Shown here one piece after another: positions 1,242-25,500 of a stretch of DNA of 64,000 nucleotides. Position 1 is the first letter of the stretch. Each line of letters starts with the position of its first letter. The DNA comes from Chloroflexi bacterium OHK40 (GTDB lineage Bacteria > Chloroflexota > Chloroflexia > Chloroflexales > Chloroflexaceae): assembly GCA_004367505.1 (NCBI GenBank), contig SFCB01000179.1, positions 19,526 to 83,525 on the forward strand, given 5' to 3'. The translations under genes and the position numbers were made by a program. Below the pieces are notes generated by a model. It ran no database searches, was not told the origin of the DNA, and worked only from the letters and a program-made list of their open reading frames with translations.

Positions 1242-2894
1242 ATGCCAAAGCTACATAAATACAATAGTCAGGATGGCTACTACATCAGGGGTGCCATGTC
1301 CGGAAGTGGTCGGATCAGCACGCTACAGGTCACCCCAGAGGCTCTCCGGCGAATACGGGCTGAAATCGGCCAAGAAAAGGTAGAATTTTCACCAGCCCTG
1401 CTGAAAGAGTTGATCAAGGAAAAACTCGTCTATACAAAGGGGTTATTCCCACTGGGTAAATTACCGAGAGTTATAGTTGAGCGAGACACGCCTCATACCG
1501 CACCACGATCTGGGGCAAAGCTGATCTTCCTTGAGAATGAGCATGCCTGGGCACTTGCTGTGCATTTATCCGAACTCCCGTCTTCTTGGGTGGAGGCAAG
1601 TAATAACTTGGTAAGGGAACTTGCTAGTTGGCGGATCACGGTCAATGGGACGTCTTCGGTCTCAGCTATGCAGCTCTATCCTGGCCGTGGTGGAGCGACG
1701 ATCACAGTGTCCCCACAGCGGGAGCCCTACGCCATTAGTGCAGAGGGAACCTGGCCCAAAGCGTGGTCCGTAATGTCATGGCTTGTGCCTCCTCTGGGCC
1801 TTGGGGACGGGGTCACTATTTTCGGGGGCGATACCAGCGAGCGAATACCGACGAGCAATCTGTTGGAGCCTGGAAACGCCTACATAGTGATCGTACATGA
1901 GCATCTTACAACCAGTTCGAAGCGGCTCCTCCCACCACCGCAACTGTCCCCCGACTACCTGGGCCGGGTAGACCAGTGGCATGCCTGGTCGATAGAAGTA
2001 CCTGGGCGGCCTGACGAACAGATGCGCTCGTGGTTTGCCCGGGCAGGTCTACAGCTAGCTGAGGCGCGCTTCCGGCTCAGCCTTGTGACACCTCCACGCG
2101 GATTCTCAGCGGAGGGACAAGCGATTATCGCTGCAGGTGAGGAGGTTGTGCTCGCGCTGGCGCCGCTGCAGCCGCAAGAAGGCCTCGAGACCAGTTTCTA
2201 CACCACTCGGATCGAGCAGACAGGCGCGCTCACGCTTAGCATAAAAGAAGTAGCCGTCACACCGCTCCGGCTTCTGGTTAAGCCCGGCGCAGAGAGTGTC
2301 AGGCAGACGGCGCCGGCAGCCCTCACGCTGGAGGTGACCTGGGGTGGTAACAGCGCTTCCTTCAAGGGGCTGGGCGGGGCTCAGTACGAGCTACCACGGC
2401 CAGCCAATGCGTCGACGGATGCGCCATACGCCGAGGTGCTCTGCCCCGCGCCGGTGACTCTGATGCTCCGGCTTGGGGACTGCTCGGTGCGACAGCGGGA
2501 ACTTCCCGCCGATGAGGCGGGCCCGCAGATCGCCGAGACCCTGCGCGAAGCGAGCCATCGCAATCTCGCCCTTGCCATCGAGATCGACGCTGGCCCGTTT
2601 GGGCGGCTCTCCCTGATAGCGCCGGCCCGCGCTGAGGCGCTCACGATCTCCTCTCCTCTATCGCCTACGACCCTCCGCCGTGTCCGCTGGCTGGCAGCAG
2701 CGCTGCCCGTACGCAGCCGCATTGAGGCCTCCATTCTCCTCCCCGCTTCTTTGCAGCAAGCCCTCAGTCATATTGCCCGCCAGGTTGGCTGTGAGTCACT
2801 GCGCGGCGTACGGACTCTCCCCGTCACGTTGCTGCCGACCCTGCGAGCCGTGGCCCGCGACATCTTGAAGATGAACGGAACGCGCCATGGATAG
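1242..2894 (+). CDS. hypothetical protein, beta-rich, operon member
   Basis: 550-aa ORF; overlaps next start by 8 nt (ATGGATAG). Confidence 0.75.
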   Translation: MPKLHKYNSQDGYYIRGAMSGSGRISTLQVTPEALRRIRAEIGQEKVEFSPALLKELIKEKLVYTKGLFPLGKLPRVIVERDTPHTAPRSGAKLIFLENEHAWALAVHLSELPSSWVEASNNLVRELASWRITVNGTSSVSAMQLYPGRGGATITVSPQREPYAISAEGTWPKAWSVMSWLVPPLGLGDGVTIFGGDTSERIPTSNLLEPGNAYIVIVHEHLTTSSKRLLPPPQLSPDYLGRVDQWHAWSIEVPGRPDEQMRSWFARAGLQLAEARFRLSLVTPPRGFSAEGQAIIAAGEEVVLALAPLQPQEGLETSFYTTRIEQTGALTLSIKEVAVTPLRLLVKPGAESVRQTAPAALTLEVTWGGNSASFKGLGGAQYELPRPANASTDAPYAEVLCPAPVTLMLRLGDCSVRQRELPADEAGPQIAETLREASHRNLALAIEIDAGPFGRLSLIAPARAEALTISSPLSPTTLRRVRWLAAALPVRSRIEASILLPASLQQALSHIARQVGCESLRGVRTLPVTLLPTLRAVARDILKMNGTRHG

Positions 2895-5190
2895 GGACTT
2901 TCTTCTCGGGTATGTGTTTGAGCGGTTCATCACAAACGGGCGAAAAGTCGCCTTGCTCCGTCCAACCCATCGGCTCGACGAGGATAGTCAGCGCTGGGTG
3001 GCCATCGAGCAGCCGACTCGGGAATTCCCGAATCGAGGTTGTGTAACCTGGATCAATGCGCCTGATGAGGCTCCAGAGCGCTCTATATGGATGTTTGAGT
3101 ATGGCTTCCACGACAGCTTTGACCTCTCTAGCCCTCGCGGAGACCGCTATCGAATCGACTTCAACCGGCAACCAGAGTCTCCTGTTGAGGTGATTAAGCT
3201 GCAAGTAAGTGGCATAGAAAGGGTGCAGCGAGCCCTCGCTAAGGGCCTATTGCTCGCATTTGTCCCGACAAGGCACGTCTACATCGTAGTCGATGGCGAT
3301 TCCTGGGTGGGGCCTGTGCGCCTCGTCTCGAGGGGTGAGCGCTGGTTCATCGACCCTCACATTCAGGCCCTTCCAATACCGTGTGTAGCGCCTGTCGCAA
3401 GCGCAGACCTGTTCACCCTTAAGATTGGCGATCGCCACCGAGCTTTGCTGCGTCATAAGATCCGACCTGAGATCAAGTTAGGCGAGGTCGACTGGGCAGA
3501 CGACGCGCTCAACCTCAAGCGCGTTCTGGAGTGGGCGCGCGAGCAGCCCGCGATCGCGCAGCCTCTGGAATTGACGAAGCGGGTTATCAAGCAAGTTGTA
3601 GAGGCGCTTCCCTCTGATGACAATGAGCTTCTCGCACAGCGGGTTCGACGAGCCCGTAGCTTCGTGGAAGAGCTCGGCGAGTTGGCCAAGGACACTGCCG
3701 CCTTTGAGCAGGAGATTCTCACTCTTCCCCAGGTCAGGCAGCGCCTTGAAGCTGCCGAGCGAGAGGGCCGCGCCGCAGCGAAGATGCAGGCTGAGGCCGA
3801 GGCGATCGCGCGGGCCAGGGCGGAGCTCGAGGCCACGAAGGCGGAGCAGGAGCGGCTCACCGAGACGCTAGCTGGCCTTCGGCAAGCCCTAGAGGCGGCA
3901 GAGAAACGAATGCACGAAGCAGACCAACACGCACGGGCAGCAGTAGATGCAGAGCTCGCGCGTCGGCGCCAAGAGCTCGAGGCACTCGACAACGCGCTCA
4001 CAGAACGAAGGCAGCAGCTTGAGACTGATCTGGGGCTTATGGACGCCGCTATGAGTGAGCGCCTCGCAGAGCTTAGTCGGCGCCCGGCCGAGACGCTCGC
4101 GCAGATCGCCATCTTCCGCGCGGTGCTCGCGGCTCAGGGAGTTGCTGGTGCGACACACTCGGCCGGAGCCTCACAGCTTAGGCCGCCCTCCACTGCTCTC
4201 TTGAGCGGTGAGGCACAAGCCGAGGATCAGAAGGACTTGGTGAACGCCGCCAAGCAGGCATCAGTAGCAGCAGGCGATGCCCCATCTGTCGGCGCTGCTC
4301 TCCACAGCGCGCTCGTCGGCGGCACGGTACCGTTGCTCGCAGGGCCTGGCGCCCTTGATATCCTGGAGGGCTACGCGAGTGTTGCGGCTGGTGGGCGTTT
4401 CCTATCTGTCACAGTTTCGCCCGCAGCCCTCGAGCCCGCAGACTTGCTCGCCAAGTTCGATGTCAACTCGCAGCGCCTGGTACTGCATCCCAGCGGCCTG
4501 CTTGACCTGCTGCTCTACGCCGGCCAGCCCGAACAGCGCGAAAAGCTCTTCCTCGCAGTGCTCGACGGCGTCAATCGGTCAGCCGCTGAGGCCTATCTCT
4601 TGCCAATCCTGGCGTGCTACAGCGCCGCCTGGGACAAGCATCGCCAGCGTGCGCTGCACCTCTTCCACCCGTCGGCGCTAGCTCCGGCAGACCCCTACGC
4701 CGTTACCGCCCGGCTGGTCTGGCCGCGGAACGTCTTGCTCGCGGGGACGCTCGTTGAAGGAGGGGCAACGGTGCCACTGCCGCCGGCACTGTGGTCGCAC
4801 GCGATCCTTATCAGCACAGGGGAAGCCCCGGCGTCCACGAAGCTTAAGGGGCGGGTCTCTCCTCCGCTAACAAGCGCATCATCGCTGAAGTGGGCCTCAT
4901 GGCGCTCACTCGCCATGAGCGATCTCGAATCCGGTCTTGAGGCTCTGGACGAGATCAAATCCGATGGCCTCCGCCTTCCCGCACCTATTGCCCACGCCTT
5001 TGCGCGCGCATACGTCTCAAGCAGCCACTGGCTCAAGTCGTCAGAGGCGAGGCGCCTGGCAGTACGCGGAGTGCTCCTACCCTATGCACTCGCCACAGGC
5101 CAGATCGAAGCACTGACGGAGGCTCTTGAGCTTGCAGAGGTGCGTCTCAGCGAGGCGGATCTTGATGGTGTGCGACAGGTGATTGCATGA
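2887..5190 (+). CDS. hypothetical protein with central coiled coil
   Basis: 767-aa ORF; long Glu/Ala/Arg heptad-like region around residues 260-400; ATGA overlap with next gene. Confidence 0.75.
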   Translation: MDRDFLLGYVFERFITNGRKVALLRPTHRLDEDSQRWVAIEQPTREFPNRGCVTWINAPDEAPERSIWMFEYGFHDSFDLSSPRGDRYRIDFNRQPESPVEVIKLQVSGIERVQRALAKGLLLAFVPTRHVYIVVDGDSWVGPVRLVSRGERWFIDPHIQALPIPCVAPVASADLFTLKIGDRHRALLRHKIRPEIKLGEVDWADDALNLKRVLEWAREQPAIAQPLELTKRVIKQVVEALPSDDNELLAQRVRRARSFVEELGELAKDTAAFEQEILTLPQVRQRLEAAEREGRAAAKMQAEAEAIARARAELEATKAEQERLTETLAGLRQALEAAEKRMHEADQHARAAVDAELARRRQELEALDNALTERRQQLETDLGLMDAAMSERLAELSRRPAETLAQIAIFRAVLAAQGVAGATHSAGASQLRPPSTALLSGEAQAEDQKDLVNAAKQASVAAGDAPSVGAALHSALVGGTVPLLAGPGALDILEGYASVAAGGRFLSVTVSPAALEPADLLAKFDVNSQRLVLHPSGLLDLLLYAGQPEQREKLFLAVLDGVNRSAAEAYLLPILACYSAAWDKHRQRALHLFHPSALAPADPYAVTARLVWPRNVLLAGTLVEGGATVPLPPALWSHAILISTGEAPASTKLKGRVSPPLTSASSLKWASWRSLAMSDLESGLEALDEIKSDGLRLPAPIAHAFARAYVSSSHWLKSSEARRLAVRGVLLPYALATGQIEALTEALELAEVRLSEADLDGVRQVIA

Positions 5191-6263
5191 GTGTGGCGAC
5201 GCAGCAACTTTCTGGTGATGACGCGCGTATGGCAGTCCTGCGGGCCCTTGGCCTCGCTGGCCTCTCTACTTCAGTCCCGCCCTGCCCTGCTCTCTGCGCA
5301 GAGGCCCTACGCGCGGCGCTCTGGTCGTACTGGGGCGCAACTGCCAAACCTGTCTACATCACGCGGCTCATCAATGCCGCTGCACGAACCTTGCTTCCCT
5401 GGCAGGAGAAACTTGGCGAAGACGACGAGAGGCTGAGCCAGCAGTTGCGAAATATGCTCCAGGAGATGGAGGTTATCGGCGATGTGGCTGCGCTGCCCAA
5501 TGGTCGCTGGAGCCCCACGCCGCCGCGGATCGTCCATGTCCCCGCGATCAGCCGGTGGCTGCTACTCGGTGGTCCCCCTTCGCGAGATCTGCCGACGCAG
5601 GTAGGCGCAGCTGTCGAGCGGATCGGGGTAGCCCGGCTGCTCCGCCTCCCACCCGGCGAGATCGATCTGGCCGTTGATGAGGTGCCGGAGCGCGAGTGGC
5701 TTCGGGCTCCGACGGAAAGCCTGGATGTCTGGGGCAGCGCCGTCCTCGATCGCTCGGCACTTACACCTGCGGGAGAGATTGACATCGAGGTCTACGCTCC
5801 AGCGGCCGCGCATCCGGCGGCAACACAGTTTGATCGTTGGAAGCTGCCAACGGCCAAGCTTGCGGATGGGTGCTATCTTGCCCGGATGCGCACCCGTCGC
5901 GGCGTAAGGGCGCACTACATCGTGCAGTTGGTGGGAGGTCGGGCCATCGCTGCGGGGCCGCCGCTTCTCGGTGACGGCGATGTGCGACGTCTTCAGTACG
6001 CTCTCGATCTGCTTGCTCACAACCCCGTCAGGGTCACTGGCACTCGCCAGCGTGACTGCTGGACGTTCAAGCTCCAGAGTGCGCTCCCACGCGCCGAGCA
6101 CCGGCTGCTCCTGGCGCTCGGTCGGGAACAGACTCCCGTTGATGGGAAGTATTACCCGCGTTGTTGGGTTATCCCCTCCAGCTATGCGCCGAGGGCGGAG
6201 AAGGCGCTGCGGGATCTCGGCATCTCGATAGAAGTCCATGAGCTACCAGAGGGAACCGTATGA
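5187..6263 (+). CDS. hypothetical protein, operon member
   Basis: 358-aa ORF; ATGA overlaps at both ends. Confidence 0.75.
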   Translation: MSVATQQLSGDDARMAVLRALGLAGLSTSVPPCPALCAEALRAALWSYWGATAKPVYITRLINAAARTLLPWQEKLGEDDERLSQQLRNMLQEMEVIGDVAALPNGRWSPTPPRIVHVPAISRWLLLGGPPSRDLPTQVGAAVERIGVARLLRLPPGEIDLAVDEVPEREWLRAPTESLDVWGSAVLDRSALTPAGEIDIEVYAPAAAHPAATQFDRWKLPTAKLADGCYLARMRTRRGVRAHYIVQLVGGRAIAAGPPLLGDGDVRRLQYALDLLAHNPVRVTGTRQRDCWTFKLQSALPRAEHRLLLALGREQTPVDGKYYPRCWVIPSSYAPRAEKALRDLGISIEVHELPEGTV

Positions 6264-9200
6264 CTACTGAGCCAACAACCAGTGTTCGGGCAGGGGTTCA
6301 GCAGATCGCCGACTCTCTACGCTCGCGCCTACAGCGCTACATCGAGGCCGCCTACCACCTCCGCGACCAGGGAGTGGTGGAGGAGCGGCGTGCACTCCTT
6401 GCTGAGCGAGGGTCGATAGCGCGTGAGCCCTTCCTCGAAACCACCCCCTCCTACGAGCTTGGTGCGCCCTATGGCCAGCTGCATCTCCCCAGTGAGGTTA
6501 GCGCCATACTTGCAGAGCTCTCGGCCTGGGAGCCAGGAGTCGGGATTTTCCCCCGTCCGTATCGACACCAGGCAGAGGCGCTCGAGGCATTTTTCAGCGA
6601 TCGGCGAGATCTTATCGTTTCGACGGGCACCGGCTCAGGCAAAACCGAGACATTCCTCCTCCCAATCCTCGGGAGCTTAGTAGAGGAGGCGTCGTCTCGG
6701 CCAGCTTCATTCCGGCAGCCAGGTTTCCGCGCGCTGCTGCTCTATCCGATGAACGCTCTGGTCAGCGACCAGATCGCACGCCTGCGGCGGCTGTTCGGCG
6801 ACGAGCGGCTCAGTGGCCTCTTCCGCAGTCGTTACGGGCGGCACCCCCGCTTCGGGATGTACACAAGTCGCACCCCGTATCCCGGCCCTCGCGACTCGAA
6901 GAAGGACAGTCTGCACCTCAAGCAACTCCTCAGCTATTACCTTGATCTGGAGGATGCCGCCCAGCGTGAGGGGCCGGGCTCGGACAGCAGCCGCCTTATG
7001 GTCGAGCTCAAGTCACGGGGGCGCTGGCCGGCCAAGGATCTGCGCGGGTTTTTCGGCGCACCGGGCGGCGTATGGGAGAAGCGGCTGCACACCCAGGCTG
7101 GCGACCGCGAGCTCCTGACGCGCCACGAGATGCAGCTCTCCTGCCCCGATATCCTCGTCACTAACTACTCGATGCTCGAGTACATGCTCGTGCGGCCGAT
7201 CGAGCGGGGCATCTTCGAGCAGACGCGGAGATGGCTGGCGAGCGATCCGGCCAACAGCCTCATCCTCGTGGTCGACGAGGCGCATCTTTATCGGGGGACG
7301 GCCGGCGCCGAAGTGTCTTATCTCGTCAGGCGGCTCCAAGCGCGCCTGGAGATCCCACGCGAGCGGTTGCGCTGCATCCTCACCAGTGCGAGTCTCGGGC
7401 CGGACACGACGGTCGAGAGGGATGCAGTCGCCTTCGCCGAGGCGTTGACCGGTTCCCCTGCGAGCGGTGGGCGGTCGTTCCATCTGGTGTGTGGCTACCG
7501 AGAGCCGCGACCAGCAGGGGCTCCCGGCAGCATGGATCAGGCGATGGCGCTCGCCGGTTTCGATCTGGCTGCTCTGGCGCGACACGCCCTTGCGCCTGAC
7601 GAGGCCGCTGCCGCGGTGGAGGCTCTTGGGCGTAATCTGGGCTGGCCCGCCCACCCTGCCTGCCAAAGCGACGATGCCGGACAAGCGCTCCAGGGATACG
7701 TCTATGATCAACTCTACGGGTTTGGGCCGCTGGAGTTGTTGATCGCCGAGACAACGGGCCGCGCCATCGGACTCCCAGAGCTAGCCGGTAGGCTCTTCCC
7801 GGGTGTGACGCCCGACACTGCCGGTCGGGCGACCGAGGCGCTCCTGACGCTTGGCACCTACGCCCACAACGGCCAGCGGTCGCTGCTCCAGACTCGCGTC
7901 CACATGCTCTTCCGCGGCCTGCCCTCCCTCTGGGCCTGCGTCAACCAGTGCTGTTCGGCCCGGCTTAGCCCCACCTCGGGCCCAGCGCTACTCGGCAGGC
8001 TCTACACTGAGCCCCGCACCCACTGTGAGTGCGGCGCTCGTGTCTACGAGTTGCTGGCGCACCGCGATTGCGGCGCCGTCTTCCTACGGGTGTTCGGCGA
8101 AGGCGACCGGCCGAACTTCTACTGGCACGAGGCGGGAGGGCGCGTTGAACGTACGGCCCGTCCACTTGAGGAGAGTTGGCTGATCGTAGAACGCCCGCAC
8201 CGCAAGCAGGAACAAGATGGCCTGGTTGAGCCAATCTGGATTGATGTAACAACGGGCCGGGTTGAGCTCGTTCCGCCTACGGAGCCGGAGCGCTACCGCC
8301 AGCTATGGCGGCCGATGCCGAAGGCACGTGCAGCCGAAGACGATGAGGCGCCATGGATAGGCGCAGTGTACCCTTTCACGCAATGCCCGGTGTGCCTGCG
8401 GAAGACGCCCGAGAAGTTGCTGGATCTGGCCACCCGCGGCGAGCGCCCGTTCGCCAATCTCGTCCACGAGCAGTTCATCTCTCAGCCGCCCAGCCGGCCG
8501 TTCAGCGAGAAGTTCCCAAATGGTGGCAGGAAAGTGTTGCTCTTTGCGGACGGGCGCCAGAAGGCGGCAAGGCTTGCCCGTGATCTGCCACGCGAGGTTG
8601 AGTTCGATACCTTCCGCCAGGCACTCGCGCTCGCTGTACAGCGACTCAGGGATCTCAATGAGGAGCCAACGCTCGGCCCCCGACTCTATGCCGCTTTCGT
8701 CTCCGTCTGCCACGATCTGCGGTTGCACTTCTTTGACCGGGAGTTCGACTCGCAGCGACAGCTCCTGCAACACATAGACGAGTTCGAGCGCTACCACGAT
8801 GCGGATCTGGAGACAGCGCTCAGCGAAGGGGATGCGCCGTTCTCTGATCCGCCTATGCACTACCGCCAGCATCTGCTAGATCAGCTCGCAAACCCGTTCT
8901 ATGCAGTCTACAGACTCGGCGCTATGGTTGCCCGTCCCTCCCGCGCTATGATCCGACGGATGCTGCGCGAGCTCGAAGCTTTCCCCGAGACTGTGCGCAA
9001 TCAGATCGAAGTGATTACTACGTTCTGGGCGGAGACCTTGCTGGAGCGGGGGGCGTTTGATAAGGGTATACCGCCCCGCGTGCGTGAGCGAGTGTTGGCC
9101 TTTGCTAGGCCGCCGAAAGATGGGGCTACGCTCAGAGATCTCGAGAAGGTGCTGAAGGACGGGGCGAGTCTGAGCGACGATCAGCTGAAGCGGCTACGGG

Positions 9201-11728
9201 TTGTGCTCTACGATGTGATGACTGAGCGGGATGACAGCGGTTTGGCGTATCTGCGACCCACCGCTCTTGTGCTGGAACTCAAGTTCGACGACACGTGGCT
9301 GCGCTGCGCCGCGTGTGGCAACCTCCAGCGCGTCCCGCTCCTTGGGCGCTGCGCCGTCTGTGGAGGGCAGCAGCTTGATCCCTGCCCGCCGGACGAGCCG
9401 ACCACCGCCGCGCGCTACGATTACTACCGCGCGCCGCTGCGGGATGTTCTGCGCGGCGGACGCCCAGCCCACCTTACCGCGGAGGAGCATACGGCGCAGC
9501 TCTCACATCGTGACGCAGGTCGCGTCTACGCGACTACTGAGGAGTACGAGCTCCGTTTTCAAGATATCGCGATCGGCAAAGACAAGCCCCCTGTTGATGT
9601 ACTGAGCTGCACAACGACCATGGAGGTGGGCATCGATATTGGCTCACTCGTCGCAATCGGGATGCGGAATGTGCCGCCACAGCGTGAGAACTACCAGCAG
9701 CGCGCGGGCCGGGCGGGCCGGCGCGGCTCGGCGATCTCAACCGTGGTGACATATGCGGACGGCGGGCCTCACGACCACTATTACTATCATCACCCAGAGG
9801 GTATGATCGCGGGTGACCCGCGCCGGCCGATGCTCAGCATTGACCGGCAGGCCCTTGCCCGGCGGCATATCTGCGCCTACTTGCTCCAGACGTTCTTTCA
9901 CGAGCAGATCGAGCGGCTTGATCCGGGGGAGCGCGAGCGGCTTGAGCGAGAGCGTCGTAGCCTGTTCACCGCACTTGGTACCAGGGAGGAATTTTTCAAG
10001 GGAGATGGGTCACTCTCCTTCAGGGCCTTCCAAAACTGGATCGGCACTCGCGTCCAGAACCCCGAGGGCAGTATTGCTCAGGCAACTGCTGCCTGGCTGC
10101 CAGATGAAGTCGTTTCCGGGGGGGCAGACGCCAAGCGCGCCTTTGTGGCGTCCACCGCAATAGCGCTGATCGAGGATCTACAGCGTCTTAGCTCATCCGG
10201 TTCTCCAAGAATCACCGGTAACACAGGGGCAGGAGTCAATACCGAAGCGGCAGAGAGTGGGCTGCTCGACGCAATGTTCGACGCCGGGATGCTGCCGAGC
10301 TATGCCTTCCCCACCGATCTCGCGACGTTCTATATCTTCGAGCGCGACGGCGAGAATGTGCGAGTCAAGGAGCGCCCCCAGCAGAGCAAGTCCCAGGCCC
10401 TGAGCGAGTACGCTCCCGGGCGGCTCCTGGTAGTGAACAAGGAGACCTACCGGGTCGGCGGCATCTTCGTTGAGGGACAAGGCTACGATGCCCCTGCGCG
10501 GGGGTTGTTCGCGAGTTCGCTGCCTGCGTACGTCTACTGTCCAGAGTGTACGTACGTCCGGCTGGAGCCGCTGAATAGCGCCGAGTGCTGCCCGGTATGT
10601 CGTGCCGAGTTGCAATCGAGCGAGTTGCTTAACCCACCCGGTTTCTCACCGGAGGGCGGCCGACCCGTAGGTGACCGCGACCGTGACCAGGAGATCAGCT
10701 ATGCCACGGGCGCCCAGTTGCCCCTCCCGGTGGCGCAGGACGAGTTGGAGTGGCGTCTGGGCGCGTGGCCGAACATACGCTACGCGTACGCGGAAAACCG
10801 GCGCTTCGTCACTGTCAACAGGGGGCCAGGCAGTGAGGGGTTCGTGGTCTGTGAGTCCTGCGGGGCCGCGTGGCCCACGGCCAACGCCCCACGAGTTGGC
10901 GCGCACGATCGCCCCTACCTCACACCTGCACACCACGGTCGAGCGCAGTGTCGCGGGCCGCTTCACCCTGGGCCGCTCTACCTCGGCACAGACTTCCGTA
11001 GTGACCTACTGCTCCTGCGCGCAACACTGCGGCAGCCATTCGGCTACAGTCCGGGCGACCCATGGCTGCACGACGCGCTGCGCACGACGTCAGAGGCGCT
11101 TGCCTTAGCCGCGAGCAGAGTGCTCGACGTTGATCCCGCTGAACTGAGCGGAGGCCACCGTCTGCTGCCGGTGACGAATGGAAGCGATGGAGTAGCGAGT
11201 TTCGACCTTTACCTCTTCGACACAGCATCAGGCGGGGCGGGGTATGCAGCCGAGGCGGGCGCCGATGTAGGTACCATCCTGCAGGCAGCCCTAGAGCTCG
11301 TGGAGGGTTGTCCGCGCCAGTGTGAGCGCTCCTGCACACGCTGTCTGCGACATTACGGCAATCGCTTTTGGCATGGCTCCTTGGACCGGCGCCTTGCTAC
11401 CCAGGTTCTGCGCCACCTGATGTTCGGAGAGGTTCCAATGGTCCCGCCGTTCGAGGTTCAGCGCCGCATCCTAGCCCCGCTACAGCGCTTCCTCGAACTG
11501 GAGGGATGGGAGGTCGAGCGAAATCAGGACGAGGCGCCCCTGTCTGTTCAGTGGAGTGGTCAGCAGATCTTGATCGGTGTTTACCCTGCTCTGCTTGACC
11601 TTCATGCCTCGGGGTTCAGCCATCCACTTGCCGGAGGTGGAGTGCTGCTCCGCGATTATGTGGTGGTGCGCGATCTCCCAGCCGCCTATGCGGAGTTGCG
11701 CCGATCGGCCCGTGCTGCGCGGCGCTAG
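6260..11728 (+). CDS. large DEAD/DEAH-box helicase with DUF1998-type C-terminus (DpdJ/DruE/MrfA-like superfamily)
   Basis: Walker A STGTGSGKTETFLLPI; VVDEAHLYRGTAGAE; CTTTMEVGIDIGSL; QRAGRAGRRG; several CxxC pairs; C-terminal CERSCTRCLRHYGNRFWHGSLDR. Confidence 0.9.
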   Translation: MTTEPTTSVRAGVQQIADSLRSRLQRYIEAAYHLRDQGVVEERRALLAERGSIAREPFLETTPSYELGAPYGQLHLPSEVSAILAELSAWEPGVGIFPRPYRHQAEALEAFFSDRRDLIVSTGTGSGKTETFLLPILGSLVEEASSRPASFRQPGFRALLLYPMNALVSDQIARLRRLFGDERLSGLFRSRYGRHPRFGMYTSRTPYPGPRDSKKDSLHLKQLLSYYLDLEDAAQREGPGSDSSRLMVELKSRGRWPAKDLRGFFGAPGGVWEKRLHTQAGDRELLTRHEMQLSCPDILVTNYSMLEYMLVRPIERGIFEQTRRWLASDPANSLILVVDEAHLYRGTAGAEVSYLVRRLQARLEIPRERLRCILTSASLGPDTTVERDAVAFAEALTGSPASGGRSFHLVCGYREPRPAGAPGSMDQAMALAGFDLAALARHALAPDEAAAAVEALGRNLGWPAHPACQSDDAGQALQGYVYDQLYGFGPLELLIAETTGRAIGLPELAGRLFPGVTPDTAGRATEALLTLGTYAHNGQRSLLQTRVHMLFRGLPSLWACVNQCCSARLSPTSGPALLGRLYTEPRTHCECGARVYELLAHRDCGAVFLRVFGEGDRPNFYWHEAGGRVERTARPLEESWLIVERPHRKQEQDGLVEPIWIDVTTGRVELVPPTEPERYRQLWRPMPKARAAEDDEAPWIGAVYPFTQCPVCLRKTPEKLLDLATRGERPFANLVHEQFISQPPSRPFSEKFPNGGRKVLLFADGRQKAARLARDLPREVEFDTFRQALALAVQRLRDLNEEPTLGPRLYAAFVSVCHDLRLHFFDREFDSQRQLLQHIDEFERYHDADLETALSEGDAPFSDPPMHYRQHLLDQLANPFYAVYRLGAMVARPSRAMIRRMLRELEAFPETVRNQIEVITTFWAETLLERGAFDKGIPPRVRERVLAFARPPKDGATLRDLEKVLKDGASLSDDQLKRLRVVLYDVMTERDDSGLAYLRPTALVLELKFDDTWLRCAACGNLQRVPLLGRCAVCGGQQLDPCPPDEPTTAARYDYYRAPLRDVLRGGRPAHLTAEEHTAQLSHRDAGRVYATTEEYELRFQDIAIGKDKPPVDVLSCTTTMEVGIDIGSLVAIGMRNVPPQRENYQQRAGRAGRRGSAISTVVTYADGGPHDHYYYHHPEGMIAGDPRRPMLSIDRQALARRHICAYLLQTFFHEQIERLDPGERERLERERRSLFTALGTREEFFKGDGSLSFRAFQNWIGTRVQNPEGSIAQATAAWLPDEVVSGGADAKRAFVASTAIALIEDLQRLSSSGSPRITGNTGAGVNTEAAESGLLDAMFDAGMLPSYAFPTDLATFYIFERDGENVRVKERPQQSKSQALSEYAPGRLLVVNKETYRVGGIFVEGQGYDAPARGLFASSLPAYVYCPECTYVRLEPLNSAECCPVCRAELQSSELLNPPGFSPEGGRPVGDRDRDQEISYATGAQLPLPVAQDELEWRLGAWPNIRYAYAENRRFVTVNRGPGSEGFVVCESCGAAWPTANAPRVGAHDRPYLTPAHHGRAQCRGPLHPGPLYLGTDFRSDLLLLRATLRQPFGYSPGDPWLHDALRTTSEALALAASRVLDVDPAELSGGHRLLPVTNGSDGVASFDLYLFDTASGGAGYAAEAGADVGTILQAALELVEGCPRQCERSCTRCLRHYGNRFWHGSLDRRLATQVLRHLMFGEVPMVPPFEVQRRILAPLQRFLELEGWEVERNQDEAPLSVQWSGQQILIGVYPALLDLHASGFSHPLAGGGVLLRDYVVVRDLPAAYAELRRSARAARR

Positions 11729-16550: not shown

Positions 16551-17453
16551 CTATGGGGCCCGGGCCTCGTGGAGGCAACGTCGGAGGTGATAGTAGTTGT
16601 GAACGGCTCGCAGGTTCACGGCCGCCTTGCCCTGCTGCTCCATCATCGCCCCCGGGCTCTCGCGGCAGACGGGGCAGTTGCAGGGGAGCGGCTCCTCGAG
16701 GATCTCGGCGAGCCCATAGCTCCGCCGCCACTCGCGGAAGTGCGGGCTTGGCAGCTTGTAGCGCCTGAAGGGGTCACTGTAGATCAGGCCGCCGCTCGCC
16801 GCCTCCTTGATCGGCGTGCCTGAGTCGGCGGAGTCGACGCCGAGGCGGGCCAGCGAGGCGAGCACGGCCACCGAGCTGACGCCCAGGATGTGGAGTCGAG
16901 GGCCGACCGCCTCGAGGGCTGCCTCCACGCGGCGCAGCACCTCGTCGCGGGCCCCCGCCACCTTGGCGGCCAGGGAGCCCAGGGCGAATCGTTCATATCC
17001 CATATCGGCGAGCGCCTGCGCGACGTAGAAGACCTGCTCAACAGTGTGGCCCTGAATGACGCCAATAGGCTCGACATGATCCCTCAGACCGCCAGACTCC
17101 AGGTAGGTGATGAGCCAGTGCGCGTGGGCGAGGCTCTGCGCGGAGCGGCGCGCCGCCTCCTCGGGGCTGCGCACGCCGATCATCAGGACGTCCAGGTGGC
17201 AGATCGCCGCCGGTGCCCCCAGGCCCTCCAAGATCCGCAGCTGCTGCCGGAGCGCCTCTTCGGGAGAGGAGCCGCGCCCGGCCCGGTGGTGCTGGAACGC
17301 CCCGCTGTCGACGATCAGCTCCTCCGGCGGGCAGGGCCAGTCGCCGGCATGCCAGGTCTGGCTGACGTTCGGCGGGCTGACCAGGGCTCGAACCTCCGGC
17401 AGATACTGCTGGTAGACCGGGTCGCTGTGGGTCCACGAGACGAAGTACTTCAT
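16551..17453 (-). CDS. TGT-fold protein, DpdA-like (paralogue 1)
   Basis: IVDSGAFQHH; IGVIQGHTVEQVFYVAQALADMGYERFALGSL; GVDSADSGTPIKEAASGG; zinc signature CNCPVC...H. Confidence 0.8.
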   Translation of the reverse strand: MKYFVSWTHSDPVYQQYLPEVRALVSPPNVSQTWHAGDWPCPPEELIVDSGAFQHHRAGRGSSPEEALRQQLRILEGLGAPAAICHLDVLMIGVRSPEEAARRSAQSLAHAHWLITYLESGGLRDHVEPIGVIQGHTVEQVFYVAQALADMGYERFALGSLAAKVAGARDEVLRRVEAALEAVGPRLHILGVSSVAVLASLARLGVDSADSGTPIKEAASGGLIYSDPFRRYKLPSPHFREWRRSYGLAEILEEPLPCNCPVCRESPGAMMEQQGKAAVNLRAVHNYYHLRRCLHEARAP

Positions 17454-17850: not shown

Positions 17851-19068
17851 ATGACGATCCGCTACTTTATCCCCGACTGGGACGACCGTGTAGACCCCGG
17901 CTACAATTTTCTCACCGATGAGCACTCGCACGGCCGCAACCCATACCGGGACGATCGCTACGCCCACGAGCTCTACCCCGAGCCGCCCTACGACGGGGTG
18001 CTGCTCTCGCGCGCCGTGATCGACGACAGCCCGGCGAAGGGCGACGCGATCCTCGATGCCGGGTCGGTGCACCGTTACCTGAGGCTGCCGGCCGACCACC
18101 CGGTGATCGGCGACTGCGGTGCTTTCAGCTACTGGCAGGCCGAGGAGCCACCCTACCGGACCGACGAGATCCTCGAGTACTACCAGCGACTCGGCTTCGA
18201 CATTGGCGTCTCGATCGACCACCTGATCTTTGCCGAGCTGGAGGACGAGAGACAGCGCCGGTGGGACATCACTCTCCAGAACGCCGAGGATTTCCTCGTG
18301 CAGCACCGCGCCGGCGGCTATACCTTCACCCCGATGGGCGTCGCCCAGGGATGGAACCCAGCCTCTTACGCTCGGGCCGCCAGGGCGCTCATACAGATGG
18401 GCTACACCCACATCGCCGCCGGGGGGCTGGTGCGGAGCCAGACTGCGGACGTGGTCGCGGTGCTTGCCGCGATCCAGGCGGAGCTGCGGCCGGGCACGCA
18501 GCTGCACCTCTTCGGCGTCAACCGCCCGGAGCAGATCGGCACCTTCGCGCAGCTTGGCGTGACCAGCTTCGACAGCGCATCGAGGCTGCGGCGGGCCTGG
18601 ATGGATGGCCGGCGCAACTACTTCCTCGGCAACAGCGCCTATACGGCCATCCGCGTCCCGGAGGCGCGAGCCCTCGCCAAGAAGAAGGGTGTCGATGAGG
18701 CGACGGCTCTGCGTCTTGAGCGGGCGGCCCTGGGCGCCCTGCGCGCCTACGACGCCGAGGAGATTGGCCTAGACGAGACGCTGGGCGCGGTGCTCGCCTA
18801 CGCCGCGCTCTTTGGCGAGATCAGCAAGAGCATTCGTCGCGACTACTACAGGACACTCGCCCAGCGGCCCTGGACCTACTGCCCCTGTGAGATCTGCATC
18901 CGCATTGGCGTCGAGGTGGTGATCTTCCGCGGCAACAACCGCAACAGGCGGCGTGGCTTCCACAACACCTGGCAGCTCTACCGCCAGCTGCGCGGCGAGG
19001 CGCAGGAGCTCCCGCCCCCGCTCCCGGACGACGGGCAGGGCGCCGCGCAGTTCACCCTCAGTCTATGA
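17851..19068 (+). CDS. TGT-fold protein, DpdA-like (paralogue 2)
   Basis: GDCGAFSYW; FDIGVSIDHLIF; GVAQGWNPASYARAARALIQMGYTHIAAGGLV; FGVNRPEQIGTFAQLGVTSFDSASRLRRAWMDG; zinc signature CPCEIC...H. Confidence 0.85.
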   Translation: MTIRYFIPDWDDRVDPGYNFLTDEHSHGRNPYRDDRYAHELYPEPPYDGVLLSRAVIDDSPAKGDAILDAGSVHRYLRLPADHPVIGDCGAFSYWQAEEPPYRTDEILEYYQRLGFDIGVSIDHLIFAELEDERQRRWDITLQNAEDFLVQHRAGGYTFTPMGVAQGWNPASYARAARALIQMGYTHIAAGGLVRSQTADVVAVLAAIQAELRPGTQLHLFGVNRPEQIGTFAQLGVTSFDSASRLRRAWMDGRRNYFLGNSAYTAIRVPEARALAKKKGVDEATALRLERAALGALRAYDAEEIGLDETLGAVLAYAALFGEISKSIRRDYYRTLAQRPWTYCPCEICIRIGVEVVIFRGNNRNRRRGFHNTWQLYRQLRGEAQELPPPLPDDGQGAAQFTLSL

Positions 19069-19071
19069 GCG

Positions 19072-19832
19072 GTGCTACCGCTCATTCTCGCCGCGGCGAT
19101 CTGCCGTGCCCTGGATGAGGCCTACGGTCAGCCAGACCTCGGCAACCACGCCGACCCGGCGGATGAGCTGATCTACATCCTGCTCTCGACGATGACGACC
19201 GAGACCAACTGCCAGCGTAGCTACGCCGCCCTGCGCACGGCGCTGCGCACCTGGGACGCGGTGCTGGTGCCGCCGGTTGAGCAGGTCGAGGCGGCGATCG
19301 CCGGCGGCGGGCTGGCGCCGCCGAAGACGTGGCTGATCCAGGAGTTCCTGTGCCGGCTGCGGTGCGACTGGGGCAGATTCGACCTCGACTTCATGCGGGC
19401 GTGGGCCGCGGGGGACCTGCGCCGTTACCTCACCACACTGCCGGCATCGGCTACAAGGCGGCCACGTGCATCATCGCCACCACGCTGCCGGGCATCGGCT
19501 ACAAGGCGGCCACGTGCGTCATCGCCTACAGCTTCGGGCGGAACATCTGCCCCGTGGCCACTCACACCTACCGGGTGGCTGTGCGCCTCGGCCTTATCCT
19601 GCTCGAGACGCCGGCGCTTGGGCGCAAGGTTCACCTGGCCATCGAGATGGCGCTGACCCAGGGCGAGCGGCTGGGCTTCCACATCAACGCGATGGCCCAT
19701 GGGCGCTGCTTGTGCTCCGTCGAGCGGCCCGTGTGTGATGGCTGCCCGGTGGCCGAGCACTGCGTCGCGCCCGAGCGGGGGCGGTACAGCCGGCAAGGTG
19801 GCGAGGGCGCGGACCTCGGCGGGGTTGGGTAG
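19072..19832 (+). pseudogene. endonuclease III-like HhH-GPD protein with Fe-S cluster motif, frame-disrupted by 47-bp tandem duplication
   Basis: N-part in frame 1 (19072-19656 ORF), C-part in frame 0 (19329-19832 ORF); LPGIGYKAATCVIAYSFG...THTYRV; C-X6-C-X2-C-X5-C. Confidence 0.85.
19438..19531 (+). repeat. 47-bp tandem duplication inside the HhH motif
   Basis: CTGCCGGCATCGGCTACAAGGCGGCCACGTGCATCATCGCC... followed by CTGCCGGGCATCGGCTACAAGGCGGCCACGTGCGTCATCGCC... Confidence 0.9.
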
Positions 19833-20652: not shown

Positions 20653-21780
20653 ATGCGAGGCAAAGGCATCAACTACGACACGGGCTTCATCAACAAAGGT
20701 GTAAGCAGCCGCGAGCCGTTCGACCTCGCGGTCGTCAGGCGCGAGCTGCAGATCATCCGAGACGACCTGCACTGCAACGCGGTGCGTATCACCGGCGGCG
20801 ACCCAGAGCGACTCGACATTGCCGCCCGCATTGCCGCTGAGGCCGGGCTGGAGGTCTGGCTCTCGCCCTTCACCTGCAATCTGACGGAGGCGGAGATGCT
20901 TGCGCTCCTGGCCGACTGCGCCGAACGCGCCGAGCGGCTGCGCCGGCAGGGAGCCGAGGTTGTGCTGCTCACCGGCGCCGAGCTCAGCCTGTTGAACAAG
21001 GGCTTTCTGCCCGGCGATACCATCGGCGAGCGCTTAGAGCTGCTGGCGGAATCGCAGCGCCTGCGCGCGCTGATCGCAGATGTTCCGGCCCGGATCAACA
21101 GCTTTCTTGGCAAGGCGGTGGCGGTTGTCCGCGAGCGGTTCGGCGGGAGGCTCACCTACGCGGCGATCCCGTTCGAGGGTGTTGACTGGGCGCCCTTCGA
21201 CATCATCTCGGTGGATATGTACCGCTCAGCCGAGGTCGCCGAGCGCTACGCCGCCGCCTTGCACTCGCTCGTCGCGCAGGGCAAGCCGGTGGCGATCACC
21301 GAGTTTGGCTCGGCCACCTACCGCGGCGCGGCGGATAAAGGCGCCCGAGGCGGGGAGGTCATTGAGTGGGACCATGAGGCGATCAGGCCGCTGCGGTTGA
21401 ACGGCGACTACACCCGCGATGAGGACGAGCAGGCGGACTACATTCGCGCGTTGCTCATGATCTTCGCCACGGAAGGGGTGGACAGCGCCTTCGTCTTCAC
21501 CTTCGTCCAGTACCAGCTGTCCCACCGCCCCAGCCCGCACGAGGACCTGGACATGGGCTCGTACAGTATCGTGAAGGCGTACGAGGATCGGCTTGGCGAG
21601 ACTTACCCGGACATGGCCTGGGAGCCCAAGGTTGCCTTCACCACCCTCGCGCGCTGCTACGGCAGTGGGCCGCCCACCGTTCAGGCCAGCAGCAACGCGT
21701 CGAGTACGCCCACGGCGAGGGGCCGGCCCGGCAGACCTCGCCGAAGAGCTTGCCATAACGCTCGCGGGGCGCCGGCGTGA
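20653..21780 (+). CDS. TIM-barrel glycoside-hydrolase-like protein (sometimes annotated abortive infection protein); C-terminal tail probably not native
   Basis: GINYDTGF...ITEFGSATYRGAADKGARGG...; last ~35 aa are low-complexity and overlap an antisense remnant. Confidence 0.65.
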   Translation: MRGKGINYDTGFINKGVSSREPFDLAVVRRELQIIRDDLHCNAVRITGGDPERLDIAARIAAEAGLEVWLSPFTCNLTEAEMLALLADCAERAERLRRQGAEVVLLTGAELSLLNKGFLPGDTIGERLELLAESQRLRALIADVPARINSFLGKAVAVVRERFGGRLTYAAIPFEGVDWAPFDIISVDMYRSAEVAERYAAALHSLVAQGKPVAITEFGSATYRGAADKGARGGEVIEWDHEAIRPLRLNGDYTRDEDEQADYIRALLMIFATEGVDSAFVFTFVQYQLSHRPSPHEDLDMGSYSIVKAYEDRLGETYPDMAWEPKVAFTTLARCYGSGPPTVQASSNASSTPTARGRPGRPRRRACHNARGAPA

Positions 21781-22140
21781 TGTGGGCCGCTTGGTTGCGG
21801 TCGGACACAACCGGCTGCGGCAGTTGCACGAAGGCGTCGAACGGGAGCACGAAAGATGGGTCAGTGTTGTCCACGCGCCCGCGAGATGGCCCTCGATCCT
21901 CACCCAGACCTCCGGCCGCCTGCGGCGCGTGCCCGCCAGCGCGCCCAGCGTCGGCTTGCCGTGAGGGAAGTCGGCGGGCCTGATGCCGGGGATCGCCATC
22001 ACGCGCCGCTGACTCTCTCGCTCCGGCACTCGGGCGATGTGGATCGTCGGCGCCGAGAAGTCGCTCGCCCGCACGCGGTCGAGCTTGTAGACAAGGTAGA
22101 CGACCAGCGCCAGCGACTCGCGCTCGACCGGCCCGAGTAG
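21640..22140 (-). pseudogene. frameshifted remnant of unknown family
   Basis: Minus-strand TLHLLGPVERESLALVVYLVYKLDRVRASDFSAPTIHIARVPERESQRRVMAIPGIRPADFPHGKPTLGA then, in another frame, RVDNTDPSFVLPFDAFVQLPQPVVSDRNQAAHITPAPRERYGKLFGEVC. Confidence 0.5.
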
Positions 22141-22202
22141 GTGCAGCGTCCGTCAGGGGTGCGTGGCCAGGCGGCGTCCGGCCTCTCCAGCGGTCAAACG
22201 TG

Positions 22203-24374: not shown

Positions 24375-25500
24375 CTACTGTATCTTCCCGCGAGCTGAGA
24401 TGGGCCAGGCCGCCACAGCCACGCCGCCCCGGTGGACGTGGTAGAGCTCATGGAGATTGACGGTGGTGTCGATGTGTCCGGGGATGAGCGCGACCAGGGC
24501 GCCCAAGGCGAGCGCGGGCTGCGCCCTTCCCTCCCACTCCAGGATGCCGTGCTCGTCGCCGCCCGGCCGGTAGCGCACTCCCGGCAGGCCGACCGGCTTG
24601 GCGTTGCCCATGTCGGTCGAGAGCGCCTTGAGCCCAGCGTCGATCACGGCGCGCCCCTGCGCCCATCGGCTGATTACCGTTGCGAGGACGGTGAGCGCGT
24701 TGGCGTAGCCGCCCCTATCGCCCAGCGCGTCGCGGTAGGCTCGGTCAAGGAAGACGAACGAGCCGGGCTGCACCTCGTTGATACCGGGGTGCGTGGCGCA
24801 GCGCTTGCAGGTGCCCGTGCCGCCCGTCGTCACGGTCTCGATGGTGTGGCCGTCGGCCCGTAGCAACTGGCTGTGCTCGTAAGTAAGAACATCGCCTCGT
24901 GTACCCAGTGCGCCTGCTCATCGGGGTCAGCGATATGCTAGAGATGGCCCTCGTAGCCCTACAGGCCCAACAGGCGCAGCCGCAGCAGGTGTGCCACTTT
25001 CCAGGTCAGCGCGTGGGCCGGCTCGCCAGGCGCAACCCCGCAGCAGCGCTGCGCCACGTCCAACTCGATCAGCACCTCTAGCGGCGTGCTCGCGCCGGCG
25101 AGGCCGTTGCTGAACATCCTGGCGCCCTCCAAGGCTATCAACCACGACCCGCACGCGCGGGTGGGTCGCGTGCAGCGCCGCGAGCCTGCCCAGCTTCGGT
25201 GCGCCGGCGAGCTCGCTGGTAATCAGCAGGTCGTCGATACCCGCCGCGGCCATCACCTCGGCCTTGCCCAGTTCGGCCACGCAGAAGACACACGCCCCGC
25301 CGCTGTGAGGATGCGGGCGATCTCGGGGCTCGTGGCGATCTTGAGGTGCGGGCGAACGTGCACGCCGCTCGGGCGCAGCCGGGCCATCAGCGCGGCGATG
25401 TTCGCCGCCCTGCCTGCCTCGGTTGAGGCACCAGTGTAGCAGCTTTGCCACGGCGCGGGGCGTGGACAGGAGGCGGGACTCCGCTGGGCGCTCCAGCCAA
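24375..25500 (-). pseudogene. D-threonine aldolase / D-serine dehydratase-like PLP enzyme, multiply frameshifted
   Basis: Fragments VFCVAELGKAEVMAAAGIDDLLITSELAGAPKLGRLAAL; MFSNGLAGASTPLEVLIELDVAQRCCGVAPGE; HTIETVTTGGTGTCKRCATHPGINEVQPGSFVFLDRAYRD in different frames. Confidence 0.75.

Follow-up and report, generated by a model that had tools for sequence, protein, structure and literature searches.

A probable recent pseudogene of an endonuclease III-like DNA glycosylase beside dpdA in Chloroflexi bacterium OHK40

In the genome of Chloroflexi bacterium OHK40, a gene resembling endonuclease III changes its reading frame within its own HhH motif, where a short segment occurs twice in tandem. 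This raises the question of whether the arrangement works as an off/on switch or marks a recent inactivation, both of which had been proposed in a preliminary description of the locus. We studied the gene in a window of 64,000 nucleotides (the whole stretch of DNA that was analysed), which is part of contig C129 in a draft genome of 6.93 Mb with 301 contigs and 3.5% contamination. The gene upstream, earlier described as the second of two TGT genes, proved to be a true dpdA, encoding a Dpd-type TGT-like DNA transglycosylase. It occupies 17851–19068 on the forward strand, scores 464.7 bits with the DpdA model NF041059 (cut-off 200), and is intact and full length against its orthologues. The other TGT-like gene (16551–17453, reverse strand, 300 aa) is weakly DpdA-like, at 61 bits for the same cut-off of 200. 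The two are divergently arranged, and the pair is kept in several relatives of the order.

The endonuclease III-like (EndoIII-like) gene lies in two pieces on the forward strand. Its 5′ part is in frame 1 at 19072–19443, with a possible GTG start at 19072, and aligns by tblastn with full orthologues at 68–79% identity; its 3′ part is in frame 3 at 19479–19832, runs to the stop codon and aligns with the orthologues at 72–77% identity. The frame change between the halves agrees with the preliminary description, as does the C-X6-C-X2-C-X5-C iron-sulphur motif, which is retained at 19713–19763 (forward strand) in sequence and translation. Neither half matches any family in Pfam, and the nth and DR2438-type glycosylase models match the 3′ part below cut-off. 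An intact orthologue (L033) matches the HhH-GPD family PF00730 above cut-off, and the intact orthologue matches D. radiodurans Endonuclease III-1 (PDB 4UNF), the nearest named solved relative, with an E value of 3e-35. As it reaches 122 bits with the DR2438-type model (cut-off 400) and 68 bits with the nth model (cut-off 212), it represents a divergent EndoIII-like subfamily. The window gene shares with Endonuclease III/Nth an HhH carrying the equivalent of Lys120 and a C-terminal four-cysteine Fe-S motif, yet it differs in its doubled HhH, its broken frame and the replacement of its catalytic Asp by Ala. The catalytic Lys (K120 of E. coli) is kept as GYKAA in both copies, with its AAG codon in the HhH of repeat copy 2 at 19503–19505; a single continuous HhH-GPD domain is no longer present, as the frame is broken. 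Pattern searching of viral contigs found no relative, and the phage and plasmid matches all fall below 60% identity, several of them being annotated as endonuclease III.

Orthologues were searched for at the levels of phylum, genus, family and order. Six were found (G246, G061, G400a, G400b, G402 and G418), all in other genera of the same order, Chloroflexales; G246 is the Oscillochloris orthologue, G418 belongs to another family of the order, and the G400b orthologue has its 5′ end cut off by a contig end. The close relatives are Chloroflexales, including Oscillochloris sp. ZM17-4. All six orthologues have a single HhH copy, an open frame and the motif VDTHTYR, and the duplication is therefore known from the OHK40 genome alone. 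Relatives carrying two HhH copies in frame had been named beforehand as the observation that would overturn the interpretation of the repeat; none of the six does so, and the relatives instead retain the intact single-copy genes expected if the window gene is a pseudogene.

The tandem repeat itself is slightly different from what was first supposed. The heptamer CTGCCGG does occur at 19438 and again at 19485, with a start-to-start distance of 47 bp in the OHK40 window sequence. Copy 1 (19431–19477, forward strand) is 47 nt long, lacks one G and carries a derived ATC (Ile) codon, while copy 2 (19478–19525, forward strand) is 48 nt long and ancestral-like, with GGG and a Val codon. The copies are separated by two substitutions and by the G missing from copy 1 (CCGG versus CCGGG), so that corresponding bases of the two copies lie 47 apart before the site of this G and 48 apart after it, and the frame switch falls inside copy 1. 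TRF analysis of the 64 kb returned no other tandem array whose unit exceeds 15 bp; with a score of 169, far above the next best (53), this one is not a chance match. From the sequence, the event is best read as an in-frame duplication of 16 codons (TTLPGIGYKAATCVIA) plus a 1-bp deletion, rather than as a clean 47-bp unit. The proposal of a 47-bp duplication was therefore right in its effect, since copy 1 lacks one G, 47 bp have been added and the frame is broken, but the unit is 48 bp. It was also right that the duplication is not simply fresh, given that the copies differ by two substitutions and one indel and that copy 2 shows the ancestral form of both the indel site and the Val codon. The junction sequence was absent from the viral contigs searched.

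The gene carries further lesions outside the repeat. At 19557–19559 (forward strand) the codon of the catalytic Asp is replaced by GCC (Ala), changing VDTHTYR to VATHTYR. Among 27 distinct HhH-GPD motif sequences the Asp is present in 26, and Ala is found in the window gene only, as read from one assembly. This residue corresponds to D138 of E. coli endonuclease III, within VDTH. The D138A mutant of that enzyme loses N-glycosylase and AP-lyase activity as well as DNA distortion, and probably tight DNA binding too (PMC5924532). The start of the gene is displaced as well. Comparison with G400a and G402, where the EndoIII-like gene begins at an ATGA overlapping the dpdA stop, places the orthologue start at the ATG at 19065–19067 (forward strand), within the same overlap. 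In the window, again in one assembly, this ATG is one base off the frame of the EndoIII-like body, a second frame break, and only the GTG at 19072 could therefore serve as a start. The gene thus bears more than one independent disabling change: the 47-bp frameshift, Asp to Ala and the shifted start frame.

Two degraded genes were found within 6 kb of the EndoIII-like gene. At 21716–22152 (reverse strand), tblastn detected, in two frames, a frameshifted remnant corresponding to residues 584–733 of a gene of 752 aa in G400; in G400 itself, the gene beside the 752-aa gene encodes an AAA protein with a HARE-HTH domain. At 24378–25405 (reverse strand), comparison of orthologous proteins with the window revealed a pseudogene of an alanine-racemase-type/D-serine-dehydratase-like gene; its reading frame changes and two TAG stops interrupt it, while in G061 and G400 the gene is intact (362 aa). 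The same orthologue-protein search found the genes for the DpdH-like protein (939 aa), DpdA (405 aa), the TGT-like protein (300 aa) and QueC to be intact. In G061 (L053) and G246 (L052), dpdA is reduced to a remnant beside an intact EndoIII-like gene. Decay of the island's flank is not confined to a single lineage.

These observations make a pseudogene very probable: an endonuclease III-like DNA glycosylase gene, associated with a dpd-like island and situated on its decaying flank, which was inactivated recently and bears several lesions. Of the two earlier proposals, that of a recent inactivation is borne out. Its ancestor would have been an intact gene directly 3′ of dpdA, as in the relatives. 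In the OHK40 lineage, 48 bp of the HhH hairpin may then have been duplicated in tandem and in frame, with replication slippage or template switching as the simplest mechanism. Two substitutions would since have come to separate the copies, and copy 1 would have lost one G, breaking the frame; the catalytic Asp presumably became Ala, and the start region moved by one base. What is seen directly are the lesions in OHK40 and the intact genes with one HhH copy in the relatives; from these we infer in which order the lesions arose, how the duplication came about and that function was lost in the cell. Some points speak against the pseudogene reading. The GTG at 19072 could still initiate translation, the Sis-HhH-GPD protein, an HhH-GPD enzyme that is active without the Asp (PMC11754123), is a caveat, and dN/dS on the branch of the gene equals the background.

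In a two-ratio codon model, omega was estimated at 0.093 for the branch of the window gene and at 0.088 for the background, and omega = 1 on the window branch was rejected (p about 8e-7). A recent pseudogene need not show a raised dN/dS. Since dN/dS on the branch is not raised and omega = 1 is rejected, inactivation must be recent relative to the branch. Nor was the window branch accelerated in the island genes tested beside the EndoIII-like gene, and in pairwise dN/dS the EndoIII-like gene is no different from its neighbours. Near-neutral evolution was considered on account of the unique changes, which number 23 nonsynonymous and 10 synonymous in the window gene against 8 and 7 in its sister G400b. 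The codon-model branch test disagreed, and these counts were therefore not used as evidence of a long decay. Loss of the gene should be tolerable, as the same genome retains housekeeping genes assigned from their own sequences as Nth-like (contig C73) and MutY-like (contig C252).

We also considered an error of assembly or sequencing, affecting either the duplication or the G absent from the GGG run, in which case the strain would have one in-frame copy. The draft and partly contaminated state of the assembly, the position of the indel within a short G run and the ability of an assembler to join two strain variants of one sequence all speak for such an error. However, the copies differ at three places and the array, at about 95 bp, can be spanned by ordinary reads; moreover, the Asp-to-Ala change, the start shift and the two degraded neighbours are independent of the duplication. 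As the long neighbouring genes (939, 405 and 300 aa) are free of frame errors, a generally error-prone assembly is also unlikely. An artefact is accordingly improbable, and inactivation remains the better account of the gene.

A phase-variable switch, in which contraction and expansion of the repeat in the population would turn the glycosylase on and off, fares worse. Two close direct repeats can recombine, and when all 49 crossover points were enumerated, the 15 upstream of the missing G removed 47 bp and joined the two frames. To this extent the claim that removal of 47 bp restores the frame holds, although the ATG at 19065 stays out of frame, so that the ancestral start is missing from the restored frame. 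At the other 34 crossover points 48 bp are lost and the frame stays broken; the longest tract of identity between the copies, 25 bp, falls in this non-restoring part. The catalytic Asp is missing in either state, and a restored protein would still be without it. Two copies are found in no relative, and frequent exchange would have kept the copies from diverging as they have done. Phase-variable genes with coding repeats have in common with the window gene a frameshift from a tandem repeat, but the latter differs in its two long, diverged copies with an internal indel, in a contraction that is mostly non-restoring and in its independent inactivating changes. Had a switch been present, it would have meant a new regulated component of a DNA-modification island; we consider it highly unlikely, and the tandem duplication, as one lesion among several, points to ordinary gene decay.

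It is equally doubtful that the product is still used in the dpd-like island, either as the frame-3 part or as a catalytically dead, DNA-binding EndoIII-like protein: the Fe-S motif and the Lys are kept, the gene was, to judge from its dN/dS, constrained along most of the branch and an Asp-less HhH-GPD enzyme can be active, but the loss of DNA distortion and probable loss of tight binding in D138A, a break inside the HhH that splits the protein into halves, and the occurrence of such a form in no relative all argue against it.

With the gene read as a pseudogene, its genomic setting is of more interest than the repeat. Besides dpdA and the TGT-like gene, the locus contains genes for a DpdH-like ATPase, an HTH regulator, a DUF6884 protein, QueC, a DUF366 protein and a Vut_1 transporter. 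Among the genes scanned, DpdA alone reached its model cut-off, and none did so for dpdB or the restriction genes dpdD–K; the DpdH-like protein is below it (62 versus 450 bits), and a DpdC-like match is weak. Reported dpd islands contain DUF6884 (as dpdC), a YhhQ transporter and preQ0 genes (PMC11888242). The window shares with the Dpd islands (dpdA–dpdK) a true DpdA, a DpdH-like ATPase, preQ0-related genes (QueC and a Vut_1-type transporter) and a DUF6884 gene, whereas two of its genes, the EndoIII-like one and the second of TGT type, are additional.

The EndoIII-like gene lies directly 3′ of dpdA in G402, G400 and G418 (L055, L056 and L080), and wherever an orthologous locus includes the upstream side, its neighbour is dpdA or a remnant of that gene. 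This dpdA/EndoIII-like neighbourhood of the Chloroflexales is absent from the descriptions in the papers found: the literature search returned no paper joining DpdA, 7-deazaguanine and endonuclease III, and a paper on YprA, Dpd and Druantia and another on base-excision restriction mention neither endonuclease III nor HhH proteins. The intact gene could conceivably be a conserved DpdA partner in the Chloroflexales, perhaps a glycosylase policing or exploiting 7-deazaguanine DNA, which has been lost here while dpdA is kept; we hold this to be a speculative and rather unlikely reading. In addition to the remnants in G061 and G246, dpdA is split across two frames in G403 (L076), and its decay is thus repeated within the family. 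The independent losses, of dpdA in G061 and G246 and of the EndoIII-like gene in OHK40, suggest that the two are not strictly interdependent, and it is their coupling in the relatives, together with the loss of either gene on its own, that keeps the locus of interest. The genes upstream also differ from those of Dpd islands, as a four-gene block beside the dpd-like island (1242–11728, forward strand) encodes Druantia DruB/DruC/DruD-like proteins followed by a DEAD-MZB helicase of 1822 aa.
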